The position numbers and the translations under genes were made by a program. A stretch of 48,081 nucleotides of DNA from Candidatus Magasanikbacteria bacterium CG11_big_fil_rev_8_21_14_0_20_39_34 (GTDB taxonomy: Bacteria > Patescibacteriota > Patescibacteriia > Magasanikbacterales > UBA922): the NCBI GenBank assembly GCA_002787355.1, contig PCWN01000007.1, positions 16,232 through 64,312 on the forward strand, in the 5' to 3' direction. Below the pieces are notes generated by a model, which had not been told where the DNA came from, did not search any database, and was given only the letters and a program-made list of their open reading frames with translations. Shown one piece after another: positions 14,924 through 47,862 of this stretch (positions are counted from its first letter, which is position 1; each line of letters begins with the position of its first letter).

Positions 14924-16273
14924 ATGAAATTGACCTTTTTTGGGGCGGCACACGAAGTTACCGGTTCATGTCATCTTTTGCAGGCAGATGGAAAAAATAT
15001 TTTGCTTGATTGTGGTATGTTTCAGGGGAGTGATTTTAATGAAGGAAAAAATAATGAAAAATTTCCTTTTGATCCAAAAACCATAGATGCGGTCGTGGTC
15101 TCTCATGCGCACTTGGATCATACAGGCAGGATTCCAAAATTATTTCGTGAAGGCTTTCATGGAAAGATTTATGCTACCAAGGCAACGTGCGAACTGGCCA
15201 ATATTATTTGGAACGATGCGTTTCATATCATGAGTTATAATAATAAAAAATTTCAGAGTCCTATTCTTTTTGATGAGGGAGATATCGAAATGGCCCGCAT
15301 GCATTGTGAGGGGGTAGACTATGGGGAAAAGGTAAGGATTGGGGATATTCAGGTAACTTTCAAAGATGCCGGACATATATTTGGTTCTTCATTTTTGGAA
15401 ATAGAAGCAGAAGGAAAAACTATTGGTTTTTCTGGAGATCTTGGGAATAGTAATGTTCCAATACTTAGAGATACGGACAGGCTTGGGAAAGTTGATATTC
15501 TTTTGTGTGAATCAACGTATGGAAGCAGAATGCATGAATCTGAGGAAATGCGTATTCAGATGCTCCATGATCTTATTATGGAGGGATACAATAAAGGCGG
15601 AGTGATTATGATGCCAGCATTTTCTATCGAAAGAACACAGGAAATTTTGTATCGGTTAGATAAACTTATAGAGCATGATAAGGCACTACCCTGCTTTCCT
15701 ATATTTCTTGATAGTCCCATGGCAATTGACTCACTTCCGGTGTATAAAAAGTATCCGGAATACTATGATGTAGAAGCTTCAAAACACTACATGAATGATG
15801 AAGATTTTTTAAGTTTTCATTGTCTTACACTTACAAGAACAGTAGAAGAATCAAAAAAGATTAATAATGTTCCCAATCCAAAGATGATTATTGCAGGATC
15901 TGGGATGATGACCGGTGGTCGTATACTTCATCATGCTTTCCGTTATCTTTCTGACCCCAATTCCACGCTTATAATTGTTGGATATCAAGCGTATGGAACC
16001 TTGGGAAGAAAACTTTACGAAGGAGCAGAAACGGTTTATATATTTGGTCAAGAAATTCCGGTACGGTGTTCTATAAAAGCGATAGGAGCCCTGTCTGCAC
16101 ATGCAGATCAACAGAAGATTCTGTCATGGGTACGAAATGCGGAAAAAATGCCAAAGAAAGTGTACTGTATTCATGGGGAACCCGAATCTTCAACGGCGTT
16201 AGCGCATAAATTGAGAGATGAGCTTTCAATAGACGCCTTTGTTCCAGAGCGGAATGAAACGGTGGAGTTGTAA
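14924..16273 (+). CDS. Beta-CASP metallo-beta-lactamase-fold RNA nuclease (CPSF/YSH1-like)
   Basis: 449 residues. MBL core with the metal motif SHAHLDH (60-66), the upstream DCGMFQG, DAGHIFGSS and FSGDLG, then the beta-CASP insert and a C-terminal RMMBL segment with GALSAHADQ and YCIHGEPES. Members are RNA endo/exonucleases related to mRNA 3'-end processing factors. Full length for the family. Promoter: TGT directly before TATACT near 14891-14896. Monocistronic: it is followed by an intrinsic terminator at 16295. Confidence 0.92.
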   Translation: MKLTFFGAAHEVTGSCHLLQADGKNILLDCGMFQGSDFNEGKNNEKFPFDPKTIDAVVVSHAHLDHTGRIPKLFREGFHGKIYATKATCELANIIWNDAFHIMSYNNKKFQSPILFDEGDIEMARMHCEGVDYGEKVRIGDIQVTFKDAGHIFGSSFLEIEAEGKTIGFSGDLGNSNVPILRDTDRLGKVDILLCESTYGSRMHESEEMRIQMLHDLIMEGYNKGGVIMMPAFSIERTQEILYRLDKLIEHDKALPCFPIFLDSPMAIDSLPVYKKYPEYYDVEASKHYMNDEDFLSFHCLTLTRTVEESKKINNVPNPKMIIAGSGMMTGGRILHHAFRYLSDPNSTLIIVGYQAYGTLGRKLYEGAETVYIFGQEIPVRCSIKAIGALSAHADQQKILSWVRNAEKMPKKVYCIHGEPESSTALAHKLRDELSIDAFVPERNETVEL

Positions 16274-16294
16274 TAAAAATAAATTCTTTCAAAC

Positions 16295-16323
16295 AAAAAA
16301 TTCCGATATTCTCGGAATTTTTT
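16295..16323. terminator. Bidirectional intrinsic terminator
   Basis: 12-bp stem AAAAAATTCCGA (16295-16306) / TCGGAATTTTTT (16312-16323) with a five-base loop. Serves the beta-CASP gene (plus) and, on the minus strand, would end the structured RNA candidate. Confidence 0.9.
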
Positions 16324-16649
16324 GCACTATCTTTTCCTACCTGCACAAGCAGATAAACAAAGTTGTGGTGGAGTGTGGTGGAACACTCCGGTGGGACGGT
16401 CCTTGGGCCCGGCCGATAATGGCGTTCGTCTTGGGGTGGCGGAGACGAACTCCTCGGATCGGCCGGGCCCTCGGGCACGGGTGAATTGAACTCGAGCAGC
16501 GACGGGATGCCTCTGCTACCAAAGTACTGCAGACTCCGGGGGGAGGTCTGTTTCCACGTGAGGGGAGGTCGCGTGGAAAGCCTTTGGCTTCACAGGAACT
16601 TCGTTCTCAACACCTGAAAAGAGGAATTCCTTTCAGCTATTGAGAAGTA
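16295..16649 (-). ncRNA. Candidate structured non-coding RNA, ~350 nt, unknown class
   Basis: The minus strand has a promoter (16656-16684), then a GC-rich stretch of consecutive perfect stems, then the terminator. Stems seen, in order of transcription: 16640-16646/16604-16610 (7 bp) enclosing 16628-16636/16614-16622 (9 bp, one G-U); 16572-16579/16551-16558 (8 bp); 16542-16550/16530-16537 (8 bp plus a bulge); 16458-16470/16405-16417 (13 bp, GGGCCCGGCCGAT arm) enclosing 16443-16450/16424-16431 (8 bp); 16383-16389/16370-16376 (7 bp). No reading frame with a proper start covers it. It lacks the landmarks of RNase P RNA, tmRNA, SRP RNA or 6S RNA that I could look for. Orientation is inferred from promoter and terminator. 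Confidence 0.75.
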
Positions 16650-16655
16650 AGCGTT

Positions 16656-16684
16656 AATGTAGATGAAAATGCTATTTTTGTCAA
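16656..16684 (-). promoter_or_regulatory. Promoter of the structured RNA
   Basis: Minus strand: consensus -35 TTGACA (16679-16684), 17-base spacer, -10 TACATT (16656-16661). Predicted transcription start near 16649. Confidence 0.75.
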
Positions 16685-16717
16685 GTACTCCCTGTGGATG
16701 AAAAAATGCTATTTTTG
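16662..16717 (-). repeat. Tandem repeat covering the structured-RNA promoter
   Basis: A ~20-base unit (plus strand GATGAAAATGCTATTTTTG at 16662-16680; GATGAAAAAATGCTATTTTTG-like copy at 16697-16717) is repeated 35 bases apart. The copy nearest the RNA is the spacer between its -35 and -10 boxes; the other lies just upstream, so it may be a duplicated promoter half or a regulator site. Confidence 0.55.
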
Positions 16718-16741
16718 CTAAATTTCTTCCTAAATGATTGG

Positions 16742-16762
16742 GCCCGTCGTGGTGCAACGGGC
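16742..16762 (-). other. GC-rich hairpin directly after a stop codon
   Basis: 6-bp stem GCCCGT / ACGGGC beginning one base after the TAA of the 16764-17078 gene. No T run follows on the minus strand, so it is not a standard intrinsic terminator. Similar hairpins end the other two GC-rich genes. Confidence 0.55.
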
Positions 16763-16763
16763 T

Positions 16764-17078
16764 TTAGGCGGGGTGCTGCGCTTCTTGATCAATGGCAAAT
16801 GCTTTGGTGAGGAGAGATACTGGAATGAAGAAGGGACGCATGCGTGGGACGCCTGTGAGGTGAAGTACCGGTTCAGCCGTGTTCGGTGGGTTTGGGAACC
16901 GATGATCCCCCGGGATCAGGTGGCTGCACTCCATGCACAGGGTGCTTTGCTTCCCAGGCACACTCGTGTCTTCGAGGGTCCAGGCGAGATGGGGGTGGTA
17001 GTCCGTCCTTCTGCAGTGATAACATGGAGTTTCCATGTATGCTCCTTCCTCCCATGAAGGCAACAATATTTGCATCAT
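16764..17078 (-). CDS. GC-rich orphan gene: small protein with two CxxC pairs
   Basis: 104 residues from the ATG at 17078, which has AAGGAG four bases upstream; a second start (METPCYHC, ATG at 17036) also has AAGGAG upstream. Two cysteine pairs, CYHC and CMEC about 28 residues apart, look like a zinc-binding finger or treble clef; the rest has no family I recognise. Codons end mostly in G or C, unlike the AT-rich neighbours, which suggests acquisition from another genome. A 7-bp inverted repeat (17098-17104 / 17124-17130) lies just before the ribosome site. Not obviously linked to uvrB, which points the other way. Confidence 0.6.
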   Translation of the reverse strand: MMQILLPSWEEGAYMETPCYHCRRTDYHPHLAWTLEDTSVPGKQSTLCMECSHLIPGDHRFPNPPNTAEPVLHLTGVPRMRPFFIPVSLLTKAFAIDQEAQHPA

Positions 17079-17180
17079 TGTACTCCTTTTTTTTTCTTCA
17101 ATCAAGAAGGAAAACTTTTTTATTGAAGTTGGTGGTATGATATGTTACTATTGAGCTATAAAAAGCAAAAAAAAGGGAAA

Positions 17181-19286
17181 ATGAAAGAACAATTTTCTTT
17201 GGAATCAGGATATAAGCCAGCCGGTGATCAGCCCCAAGCCATTGAGGGGCTTGTTTCGAGTTTGCAGAAAGGGAATAAAAAACAGACCCTCCTGGGAGTA
17301 ACGGGTTCTGGAAAAACATTTACGGTTGCCAATGTCATACAGAAAATTCAAAAACCAACATTGGTCATTGCACACAATAAGACGCTCGCAGCACAATTGT
17401 GCAATGAATTTCGTGAATTTTTTCCTAAGAATGCGGTTGAGTATTTTGTGAGTTATTACGATTATTATCAACCAGAAGCCTATATTGCGAGTTCTGACAC
17501 CTATATAGAAAAAGAAGCACAGATAAATGACGAAATTGATAGGCTACGGCATGCTTGCACTCAGGCATTACTTTCAAGAAAAGATGTTATTATTGTTTCT
17601 TCGGTTTCTGCCATTTATAACCTTGGTTCTCCAAAGGAATATGAACAAGTCGTCCTTCATCTCAAAAAGGGGGATAGATTAGATAGACGTGGACTCATGC
17701 AGCACTTGATTGACATTCATTTTGAGCGAACCAATAGTGATCTATCACGTGGACAGTTTCGTATGCGTGGACAGCTATTTGAAATCATGCCGGTTAATGA
17801 AGAAAAAATATATCGTTTTGAAGTTTCGTCTCAAATTGATCTGATAGAAAAAATTCATCCGGTTACCCGCAAAGTAGAATCAGAGATGCATGATGCATGG
17901 TTTTTCCCCGCAAAGCATTATGTTGCGGGGGAAAGTATTCGGCTGCAGGCAATGGAGAATATAAAAAGTGAGCTCAAAGAACGGTTGGACTATTTTCAAA
18001 AAAAAGGAATGCCTTTGGAATATGAACGTTTAAAACGGAGAGTAAAATATGATTTAGAAATGATTGCCAACGTTGGGTATTGCAATGGAATTGAAAATTA
18101 TTCAAGACATTTCGATGGAAGACTCCCAGGAGAAGCTGCATTTTCTCTTCTTGATTTTTTTCGTTATGGATCCAGTAAAGGAGAGGCTCATGAAAAGAAT
18201 AATTTTCTTGTGGTGATTGATGAGTCACATGTCACGATTCCACAGATTCGTGGAATGTACCACGGTGATAGGGCAAGAAAAGAAAGTCTCATAAATCATG
18301 GTTTCAGACTTCCTTCTGCTTTTGATAACCGTCCGCTGACCTATGATGAATTTGACGAGCGTGTAGAGCAAGTTATTTATGTTTCGGCGACACCTTCTGA
18401 GTATGAATACAATGAGAGTGCCCTGGTTGCAGAACAGATTGTTCGTCCTACGGGTCTTGTTGATCCTGAAGTTATTATTCGTCCCGTGACCGGAGATGGA
18501 AGTGGAAAACAACTTTCTCAAGTAGAAGATGTTATTGTCGAAATTCAAAAACAGGTGAAGAAAAAGGAAAGAACTTTGGTTACAACACTTACAAAAAAAA
18601 TGGCGGAAGATTTAACGGAGTATTTGGAAGAAAAGAAAATTAAAGTAAAATATTTGCATAGTGATATAAAAACTATTGAGCGAATAGAAATTATCACTGA
18701 GCTTCGACGGGGGAATATTGATGTTATCGTTGGGGTAAATCTTTTGCGTGAAGGTTTGGATATTCCTGAAGTTTCTTTGGTGGCAATTTTGGATGCGGAT
18801 AAAGAAGGATTCTTGAGAAGTCAGACCAGTCTTGTACAAACTATTGGACGTGCAGCAAGAAACGTGAATGGAAAAGTTATTTTGTACGCGGATGAACGAA
18901 CGGGTTCTATTGATAAGGCAATTGAAGAAACAGATAGGAGAAGAAAGAAACAGTTAGCATATAATAAAAAGCACAACATTACTCCAAAGACAATTGAAAA
19001 AAATATAAAAAATATTTTAGAAGAATTTGGTATTACCAGTGTTCCAACAGAAGGTGGAAATCGTTCTCGACATAGTAAAAATTTGAAGGAGGGCAAACAT
19101 ACCTTGGATCTTGATCTTTTGGGAGACGGAAGAAGTGTTGCGGAAATTATAAAAGATAAGGAAATTAAAATGAAAGAAGCGGCACAAAAATTAGAGTTTG
19201 AATTAGCTGCTATTTTGCGTGATGAAATTCGAGAACTCACTGCACGCCAGAAAATGGTAAAGCGATCATCAAAAAAGAAAAAATAA
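17181..19286 (+). CDS. uvrB: Excinuclease ABC subunit B
   Basis: 701 residues from the ATG at 17181 (MKEQFSLESGY); a start at 17142 would add 13 unconserved residues. Helicase-like damage-verification subunit of nucleotide excision repair. Visible: P-loop GVTGSGKTFT, the beta-hairpin region YYDYYQPEAYIASSDTYIEK, DESHVTIPQ, the helicase motifs FLRSQTSLVQTIGRAARN, and a C-terminal UVR motif (KMKEAAQKLEFELAAILRDE) that contacts UvrC. An extended -10 (TGG before TATGAT, 17136-17141) lies ~40 bases upstream. uvrA and uvrC are both within 10 kb. sanA follows after four bases. Confidence 0.97.
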   Translation: MKEQFSLESGYKPAGDQPQAIEGLVSSLQKGNKKQTLLGVTGSGKTFTVANVIQKIQKPTLVIAHNKTLAAQLCNEFREFFPKNAVEYFVSYYDYYQPEAYIASSDTYIEKEAQINDEIDRLRHACTQALLSRKDVIIVSSVSAIYNLGSPKEYEQVVLHLKKGDRLDRRGLMQHLIDIHFERTNSDLSRGQFRMRGQLFEIMPVNEEKIYRFEVSSQIDLIEKIHPVTRKVESEMHDAWFFPAKHYVAGESIRLQAMENIKSELKERLDYFQKKGMPLEYERLKRRVKYDLEMIANVGYCNGIENYSRHFDGRLPGEAAFSLLDFFRYGSSKGEAHEKNNFLVVIDESHVTIPQIRGMYHGDRARKESLINHGFRLPSAFDNRPLTYDEFDERVEQVIYVSATPSEYEYNESALVAEQIVRPTGLVDPEVIIRPVTGDGSGKQLSQVEDVIVEIQKQVKKKERTLVTTLTKKMAEDLTEYLEEKKIKVKYLHSDIKTIERIEIITELRRGNIDVIVGVNLLREGLDIPEVSLVAILDADKEGFLRSQTSLVQTIGRAARNVNGKVILYADERTGSIDKAIEETDRRRKKQLAYNKKHNITPKTIEKNIKNILEEFGITSVPTEGGNRSRHSKNLKEGKHTLDLDLLGDGRSVAEIIKDKEIKMKEAAQKLEFELAAILRDEIRELTARQKMVKRSSKKKK

Positions 19287-25025: not shown

Positions 25026-25053
25026 CTACGGCGGGGTGGATTAGCCGCCGTAG
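25026..25053 (-). other. Hairpin with the stop codon in its loop
   Basis: 9-bp perfect stem CTACGGCGG / CCGCCGTAG; the TAA of the 25041-25994 gene lies in the 10-base loop. No T run follows on the minus strand. Confidence 0.6.
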
Positions 25054-25994
25054 ATGAAGGTGAGATCGTGGAGGATACGCTCCGTGAGTTCGGAAAGTGA
25101 AAATCCGAATGGATCAGGGGTTGTGAATGCGAAGTTCACACGTGACCAATCATCTGCCTGGAAGTTCTTCCAGTTGGAATGGTTGGTAACCTCATCAAGC
25201 GGAAGAAGTCGTGTGGGGCCGGCACTGCACCAGAATGGGAGGAATCCCATCTGGTAGAGATGGCTTCGGTCAAACACCTTCGCAAAACCCGAGAGGTGGG
25301 GTGGGACGTCCATGTGGTGGATGGGCTCGCAAATGCACCCACGGTCAATGCCAAGGATGTCCAGCCAAAGAGGCGTGTACATCAACTCGACCTTGGCAAA
25401 GTCGCGGTCAGCGGGTCGGATGTTCTTCCCCGTTTGGCGTTCCCAGATGCGCAGGGCCAGTTCAAGCTCGCGCTCGACAGAACTGCTGTAGACCACATCT
25501 ACCTGACCGCGGAAACCGTAGTTGTGCAGCCAACGTTGAATGACAGGGGCGCCCTGTGTCTGGTGAACCTCTTGGAAGATCTGTGCAATCTTCTCTCCGT
25601 TGAGCCCCGTCCACTTGGCCACGCGTTTGGCCCAGATGGAGTCTTCCACGATGTAGACCACACGCTTGCAGCTTCGGGGCGGAATGCCCACACAGTCGTG
25701 TACCTGGTCTACACGTGGGTACCAGGACATGATCCACTCGCGGAAGCTCTCCTCGGTCTTGAAGGTGAGCTTCTTCTTTCGGATCTGGTCCGAGTCCGCC
25801 GTGAACAGCGAACAGATACCACCGATCCACGTGAACCGGTTGGGGTCGAGGTGTTCACCGCCGTTGCGGATGACGAGAACCTTCTTGCCCGTGGGGCCGT
25901 GGTTCCTATCATCGTGCTCACAGGGTGTGCACAGACCGTAGTTGTGGGGGTCGAATCCCTGCGTGGAGAGTTCCTTTCGAATCCAGTTTCGCAT
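25041..25994 (-). CDS. GC-rich orphan gene, 317-residue protein of unknown function
   Basis: Starts at ATG 25994 with GGAGG four bases upstream. Codons end mostly in G or C, in contrast to the flanking genes. The protein is soluble (no signal or membrane segment), has a CxxC near the N terminus (LCTPCEHDD), further cysteines in CVGIPPRSC and GCICEP, a central basic region (RVAKWTGLNGEKIAQIF) and many aromatics towards the end. I do not recognise a family. The long, highly structured leader (25996-26240) suggests conditional expression. Composition and isolation suggest horizontal acquisition. Coding status is well supported by length, ribosome site and codon bias. Confidence 0.75.
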   Translation of the reverse strand: MRNWIRKELSTQGFDPHNYGLCTPCEHDDRNHGPTGKKVLVIRNGGEHLDPNRFTWIGGICSLFTADSDQIRKKKLTFKTEESFREWIMSWYPRVDQVHDCVGIPPRSCKRVVYIVEDSIWAKRVAKWTGLNGEKIAQIFQEVHQTQGAPVIQRWLHNYGFRGQVDVVYSSSVERELELALRIWERQTGKNIRPADRDFAKVELMYTPLWLDILGIDRGCICEPIHHMDVPPHLSGFAKVFDRSHLYQMGFLPFWCSAGPTRLLPLDEVTNHSNWKNFQADDWSRVNFAFTTPDPFGFSLSELTERILHDLTFIYGG

Positions 25995-47587: not shown

Positions 47588-47610
47588 CTTGATCTGGTGG
47601 GAGGATCAAG
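47588..47610 (-). other. Hairpin containing a stop codon
   Basis: 7-bp perfect stem CTTGATC / GATCAAG; the TGA of the 47606-47830 gene is in the 5' arm (minus strand). No T run follows. Confidence 0.5.
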
Positions 47611-47830
47611 TGGCGGGGTGGTGAGGTGGGGGGAGTGCGAGGTGGGGATGAGGCTTGAGTGCCTCACGCAGGAGCATCTCACGTGCCGCTGCGGTACACC
47701 CTTCGAGGAATCGAGGGGTTGCGGGATGGTTCTCCCGCAGGAGACGTGCCATACGGCTCTCGAAGAGTCGACTCCTCCTGTCGTCGACTGGTGACTGGTC
47801 TGATCTTGCGAAAAGCGATCGCAATCGCAT
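47606..47830 (-). CDS. GC-rich orphan gene: 74-residue Arg-rich protein
   Basis: ATG at 47830 with AGGAG ten bases upstream and a promoter at 47863-47891 that would exclude longer starts. Sequence begins MRLRSLFARSDQSPVDDRRS, is rich in Arg, Ala, Pro and His, has one Cys and ends LALPPPHHPAT. No family recognised. Composition differs sharply from the AT-rich neighbours. It may bind nucleic acid; that is only suggested by charge. A short structured RNA instead of a protein is an alternative. Confidence 0.5.
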   Translation of the reverse strand: MRLRSLFARSDQSPVDDRRSRLFESRMARLLRENHPATPRFLEGCTAAAREMLLREALKPHPHLALPPPHHPAT

Positions 47831-47862
47831 AGAACCGAAACTCCTGAGAAAGTTGAGCCAAG

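Follow-up and report, generated by a model that had tools for sequence, protein, structure and literature searches.

The minus strand of positions 16295-16684 of the window (the whole stretch of 48,081 nucleotides that was analyzed, from Candidatus Magasanikbacteria) contains what is probably a gene whose product is a stable, structured noncoding RNA about 340 nt long. We put the probability of this reading at roughly 0.6. It holds that the RNA is specific to part of the Magasanikbacteria-like family to which the window belongs and that it is fast-evolving, with position, promoter region and general architecture alone having been kept. Sequence and computation gave a promoter-like site, a strong minus-strand fold, the absence of an ORF, a terminator, and, at the corresponding place in six other genera, similar units. 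The first-pass annotation had claimed a structured RNA here, and this claim is upheld by the strong fold, the apparently noncoding sequence, the lack of an Rfam match and the like-built units of six relatives, but its argument from GC content is not. The anatomy that it described on this strand, a promoter with a 17-nt spacer and a 13-bp GC stem around an 8-bp stem, was found again, and its 12-bp terminator proved to be a hairpin with perfect 13-bp arms. The features of the locus, in a genome of 1.18 Mb, are as follows.

14924-16273, plus strand: beta-CASP/RMMBL ribonuclease, TTHA0252-like (Pfam; PDB 2dkf/3iek, E 3.5e-106)
16294-16324, either strand (also listed on the plus strand): putative bidirectional terminator hairpin with perfect 13-bp arms, common to the unit and the convergent nuclease gene
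16310-16649, minus strand: proposed noncoding RNA of about 340 nt, with ends placed from the promoter and terminator
16331-16362, minus strand: AT-rich hairpin of 13 bp immediately 5' of the terminator (pair probability 0.82)
16370-16389, minus strand: hairpin GGAGTGT/ACACTCC (pair probability 0.98)
16405-16470, minus strand: 13-bp GC stem around a 10-bp stem, 8 bp of the latter perfect (pair probability 0.99 each)
16530-16550, minus strand: hairpin CAGACCTCC/GGAGTCTG (pair probability 0.93)
16552-16578, minus strand: hairpin TTCCACGCGA/TCACGTGGAA (pair probability 0.95)
16604-16646, minus strand: 5'-terminal hairpin of 18 bp with a loop of 5 (pair probability 0.97)
16656-16684, minus strand: putative promoter, -35 TTGACA (16684-16679), 17-nt spacer, -10 TACATT (16661-16656)
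16764-17078, minus strand: gene for a 104-aa orphan protein, a second GC-rich island, between the RNA unit and uvrB
17142-19286, plus strand: uvrB (NCBIfam NF003673, E 3e-293)

The promoter-like site of the unit had 10 of 12 matches, and such sites were not rarer than in shuffled sequence (6 found and 5.2 expected over 2.5 kb). An exact 15-nt direct repeat, AAAATGCTATTTTTG, was present at 16666-16680, within this promoter, and at 16703-16717, 37 nt upstream. At the other end of the unit, the terminator is a perfect 13-bp inverted repeat (16324-16312/16306-16294) into which the convergent nuclease gene also runs. Because it is AT-rich and symmetrical, it can serve both strands.

The predicted fold of the minus strand had a free energy of -151.3 kcal/mol (z -9.6), which none of 100 dinucleotide shuffles equaled, and the body of the unit without the terminator was likewise more stable than its shuffles (z -8.9). 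The plus strand scored z -6.3; this good fold of the complementary strand, usual for GC-rich inverted repeats, counts against the reading as an RNA gene. The central GC stem is perfect over 13 bp (16470-16458/16417-16405) and encloses the 8-bp pairing GTTCGTCT/AGACGAAC. A hairpin comparable to the AT-rich one at 16331-16362 also precedes the terminator in L038, L039, L043, and L059.

The GC content of the core of the unit is 0.58-0.66, compared to 0.387 for the window. The first-pass annotation had read this difference as a sign of a stable RNA. The unit is indeed GC-rich relative to its surroundings, but this property is not specific to RNA: a survey of 284 kb of the contig found 13 further GC-rich islands (roughly 52-60% GC, the gene for the 104-aa protein included), and these were mostly small protein genes without a Pfam match, two of them resembling GDSL lipase and 2OG oxygenase. 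Since the majority of the genome's GC islands encode proteins, GC-richness is no evidence for RNA here, and the argument was dropped after the survey. What sets the unit apart from the islands is its fold z-score together with the absence of an ORF. Fold z-scores of the coding islands ranged from +0.6 to -6.7, with just two below -3.3, compared to -8.9 for the body of the unit. A descriptor combining promoter and fold identified five units in the 284 kb, only one of which, the RNA unit, lacked a Shine-Dalgarno ORF. The coding islands are otherwise similar to the unit in their jump in GC content, their terminators and, in some cases, a TTGACA-type promoter. Both also contain C-rich words, which in the unit are CCACCC/CCCACC on the transcribed strand.

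Within approximately 60 nt around the stop codon, all 13 of the islands (window 16764-17078, 25041-25994, and 47606-47831, and ten in L022-L029) had CCCACC, CACCCC, or CCACCC, words whose background frequency is 0.28 per kb on each strand; the ORF ends are uncertain for two of these islands (L026:12254 and L025:18220). This tag might act as a signal for termination, stability or recombination. Three of the islands are neighbors in the same genome (L025:17710-18039, L025:18220-18510, and L025:11367-11675). In two of them the 3' UTRs and terminators are almost the same, and on visual comparison two of the three encoded proteins seem related. The genome also contains a group I catalytic intron (L026:8225-8601, plus strand; RF00028, 88.8 bits).

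The downstream flank of the beta-CASP nuclease gene was read in 44 relatives, and a unit of like build was found on the same strand in six: G001, G011, G017, G020, G030, and G031. In each of these units a TTGACA promoter precedes a 5' hairpin, a core that is GC-rich and multi-helix, and additional hairpins; none contains an ORF, and an AT-rich terminator is present in most. TTGACA is exact in all seven syntenic units, the window's included. Unit lengths vary from about 240 to 430 nt, and the bodies of the relatives' units had fold z-scores of -5.1 to -8.4. Judged by sequence, all of the units are single copy, and that of the window is unique in its own genome. A 5' hairpin of at least 18 bp that starts 9-18 nt after the -10 is present in five of the seven, compared to 6 of 79 other TTGACA promoters with a 5' hairpin of at least 13 bp (Fisher p 2.5e-4). 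The predicted folds suggest a common order of a 5' AT-rich hairpin, a core that long GC helices close, a GC hairpin, a second AT-rich hairpin and the terminator, with the exception of L056 and L057, in which pair probabilities join the 5' leader to downstream sequence.

No like-built unit was present at the nuclease flank in 38 of the 44 relatives, nor was one found at the nuclease gene in other families of the order, which indicates that the unit is not essential. Recurrent matches at the nuclease gene in those other families were rejected as leaders on the opposite strand that resemble the promoter of the mraZ operon. A unit divergent from uvrB in G019 (L109) was not counted (z -2.0 for the first 350 nt), and a region resembling it upstream of uvrB in G078 (L118) was left out as well. 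The L118 region spans about 700 nt, runs divergently from uvrB and lacks any long ORF. It contains a TTGACA promoter, the T-arm-like sequence CGGAGTTCAAATCTCCG and an ORF of 33 aa preceded by a strong Shine-Dalgarno site, and it had no Rfam or ARAGORN match. Two other regions in genomes of this group were also of note. L072:5892-6182 (minus strand, G030) has a TTGACA promoter and, after it, a very long single hairpin that ends in a T run, and is a candidate short noncoding RNA, and L083:6260-6640 (minus strand, G001) is strongly folded and GC-rich, lies directly 3' of a tRNA-like sequence and has a terminator at its end.

Alignable copies of the unit were not found in 46 family genomes, 86 order genomes, phages or plasmids, and a search of IMG/VR with exact patterns found no homologue. 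The sole perfect match of 21 nt (G004, L007) sits in unrelated sequence, and the matches of 28-30 nt are the AT-rich terminator palindrome. The seven unit bodies did not align between genera, and they had no motif in common beyond chance except A-rich words and GGGTG/CACCC. In the seven units, the 80-nt stretches preceding the -35 had a mean local pair score of 14.2, compared to 10.96 ± 0.49 for shuffles (none of 300 reached the observed score) and 10.2 ± 0.8 for sets of AT-rich promoters (none of 500). Part of this similarity may be inherited from the uvrB promoter and not from the RNA; the resemblance includes the pair G017-G001, where uvrB does not adjoin. DnaA boxes (TTATNCACA-like) were located upstream of four of the seven units, but they were also found at 7 of 66 other promoters and were therefore not used as evidence. 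Enrichment of units at this locus looked very strong by total sequence length. By intergenic length it is no more than suggestive: six units lie in intergenic flank totaling about 35 kb and one or two in about 42 kb elsewhere (conditional p 0.04-0.09).

Comparison of gene order pointed to the beta-CASP nuclease gene, more than uvrB, as the constant neighbor of the RNA. The promoter of the RNA overlaps a legible plus-strand uvrB promoter in G031 (TTGCAT-17-TACAAT), G030 (TTGCCA-17-TATAAT), and G020 (TTGCCT-17-TATTCT); the loci in which overlapping divergent uvrB promoters are directly legible are L038, L056, and L059. Because the promoters overlap where uvrB still adjoins, the RNA and uvrB genes probably once competed for polymerase. 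In the window the corresponding plus-strand -10 has been lost, and the gene for the 104-aa protein separates the RNA from uvrB. This protein had no match in Pfam, NCBIfam or PHROG, and searches of 45 family genomes and of IMG/VR found no relative of it. The closest named homologue of the nuclease (63% identity) is that of L003 (Candidatus Magasanikbacteria), where uvrB directly adjoins the nuclease gene and the insert is absent. Two units sit at places where a gene other than uvrB adjoins, and in G017 the order is nuclease, RNA unit, and then an apparent mraZ operon. The RNA thus keeps to the nuclease gene more closely than to uvrB. The first-pass description of the unit as lying next to uvrB thus captured part of the context and missed the more constant neighbor and, in the window, the intervening GC-rich gene. 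An inverted repeat, TTTAGCT-N6-AGCTAA(A), is present upstream of uvrB in two relatives (L056 and L059) and is a possible uvrB operator.

The Rfam search that the first-pass annotation had proposed gave no match at the gathering score (Rfam 15) in the segment or in the relatives' flanks, and at E ≤ 10 there was no meaningful match within 16200-17150 and none to SRP, 6S, RNase P or tmRNA. A known RNA family was therefore rejected as the identity of the unit. RNase P RNA is normally encoded by one gene per genome, and the hallmarks of tmRNA are a tRNA-like domain and a tag frame. Both are similar to the unit in size and in GC-richness against an AT-rich genome, but their models match only elsewhere: the RNase P RNA gene (RF00010, 175.4 bits) is on contig 3 and the tmRNA gene (RF00023, 117.9 bits) on contig 11. 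The unit is thus neither of the two, in agreement with the first-pass annotation. An extremely diverged form of a known housekeeping RNA (SRP RNA or 6S RNA, for example) is a very improbable identity for it. The model of the small bacterial SRP RNA (RF00169) had no match in this genome and seven relatives, which leaves one housekeeping RNA unaccounted for in eight family genomes as far as the small model is concerned, and the SRP RNA of these genomes may have diverged or belong to the large type. However, domain IV of SRP RNA is normally highly conserved, the segment did not match these models even at E ≤ 10, and patchy presence is ill-suited to an essential RNA. It is also improbable, though somewhat less so, that the unit is an mRNA, encoding a very small protein or one without an ATG start, or else a long and structured leader, like some of the GC islands. 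The GC islands nearby are protein genes, and one in G017 (L077) consists of a TTGAC promoter, a long 5' hairpin and then a 69-aa ORF. In the unit, however, no ATG occurred in the 352 transcribed nt examined on the minus strand and no Shine-Dalgarno ORF was found; the best frames, of 61 aa (TTG) and 59 aa (GTG), both lack a Shine-Dalgarno site. A small protein was rejected because start codon and Shine-Dalgarno site are absent, and the translated frame that the first-pass annotation had named as evidence against an RNA was not seen by computation. Furthermore, the unit is closed off from any downstream gene by the terminator-like hairpin, and the gene that follows is convergent.

More weight is due to an explanation that we nevertheless consider unlikely, in which the junction of nuclease and uvrB is a hot spot for the insertion of GC islands. 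The segment would then be a noncoding or decayed island (a mobile cassette or palindrome-rich element) that does not function as an RNA, and the units of the relatives would be independent insertions. Coding GC islands are present at the junction too (the gene for the 104-aa protein; L039, L042, and L109), and the number of islands in the genome, the patchy presence of the unit, the bodies that cannot be aligned and the modest enrichment per intergenic length all favor insertion. However, the folding of coding islands is much weaker, and a z-score of -8.9 would thus not result if one of them decayed. The related upstream regions, the invariant TTGACA, the long 5' hairpin in most units and the uniqueness of the unit in its own genome also argue against insertion. 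On the balance of the related upstream regions, the weaker enrichment and the coding islands at the junction, an orthologous RNA was placed at about 0.6 and insertion at a hot spot was considered unlikely.

If the unit is an RNA gene, transcription would start from the TTGACA promoter, which would be a strong one, the 5'-terminal hairpin would protect the RNA from 5'-end-dependent decay, and the RNA would end at the terminator common with the nuclease gene. The weakest step of this proposal, and a doubtful one, is that the RNA might act in trans as a scaffold or sponge that binds proteins, by means of its fold and not of a conserved base-pairing seed. A broader interpretation is offered tentatively: this may be a noncoding RNA specific to a lineage of Patescibacteria, in which place and architecture (a 5' hairpin, a multi-helix core rich in GC, hairpins at the 3' side and a terminator) have been selected while sequence has turned over completely, which would point to function by shape, and whose promoter overlapped that of uvrB in the ancestor.

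The literature searched contained no description of a structured noncoding RNA from these bacteria. An RNA kept by place and architecture, and not by sequence, escapes ordinary homology searches, which would argue for hunting such RNAs by synteny and folding, and this locus is a concrete place to look in metatranscriptomes. OLE, GOLLD, and ROOL are orphan structured bacterial noncoding RNAs that were found by comparative genomics. The unit is similar to RNAs of this kind in being intergenic, large and multi-helix, in having its own promoter and terminator (predicted in the unit) and in having no ORF and no assigned function at the time of discovery. In contrast, those families keep alignable motifs, whereas the unit keeps its position, promoter region and gross architecture only. 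In host-restricted bacteria, one study describes fast-evolving syntenic small RNAs, mostly antisense and shown by RNA-seq, that have motifs in their upstream regions and whose homologues were recognized with the help of genomic position (PMC8557413). Compared with those small RNAs, the unit is long, highly folded and known from sequence alone, but it is like them in its upstream motifs and in a putative homology that is recognized with the aid of position.
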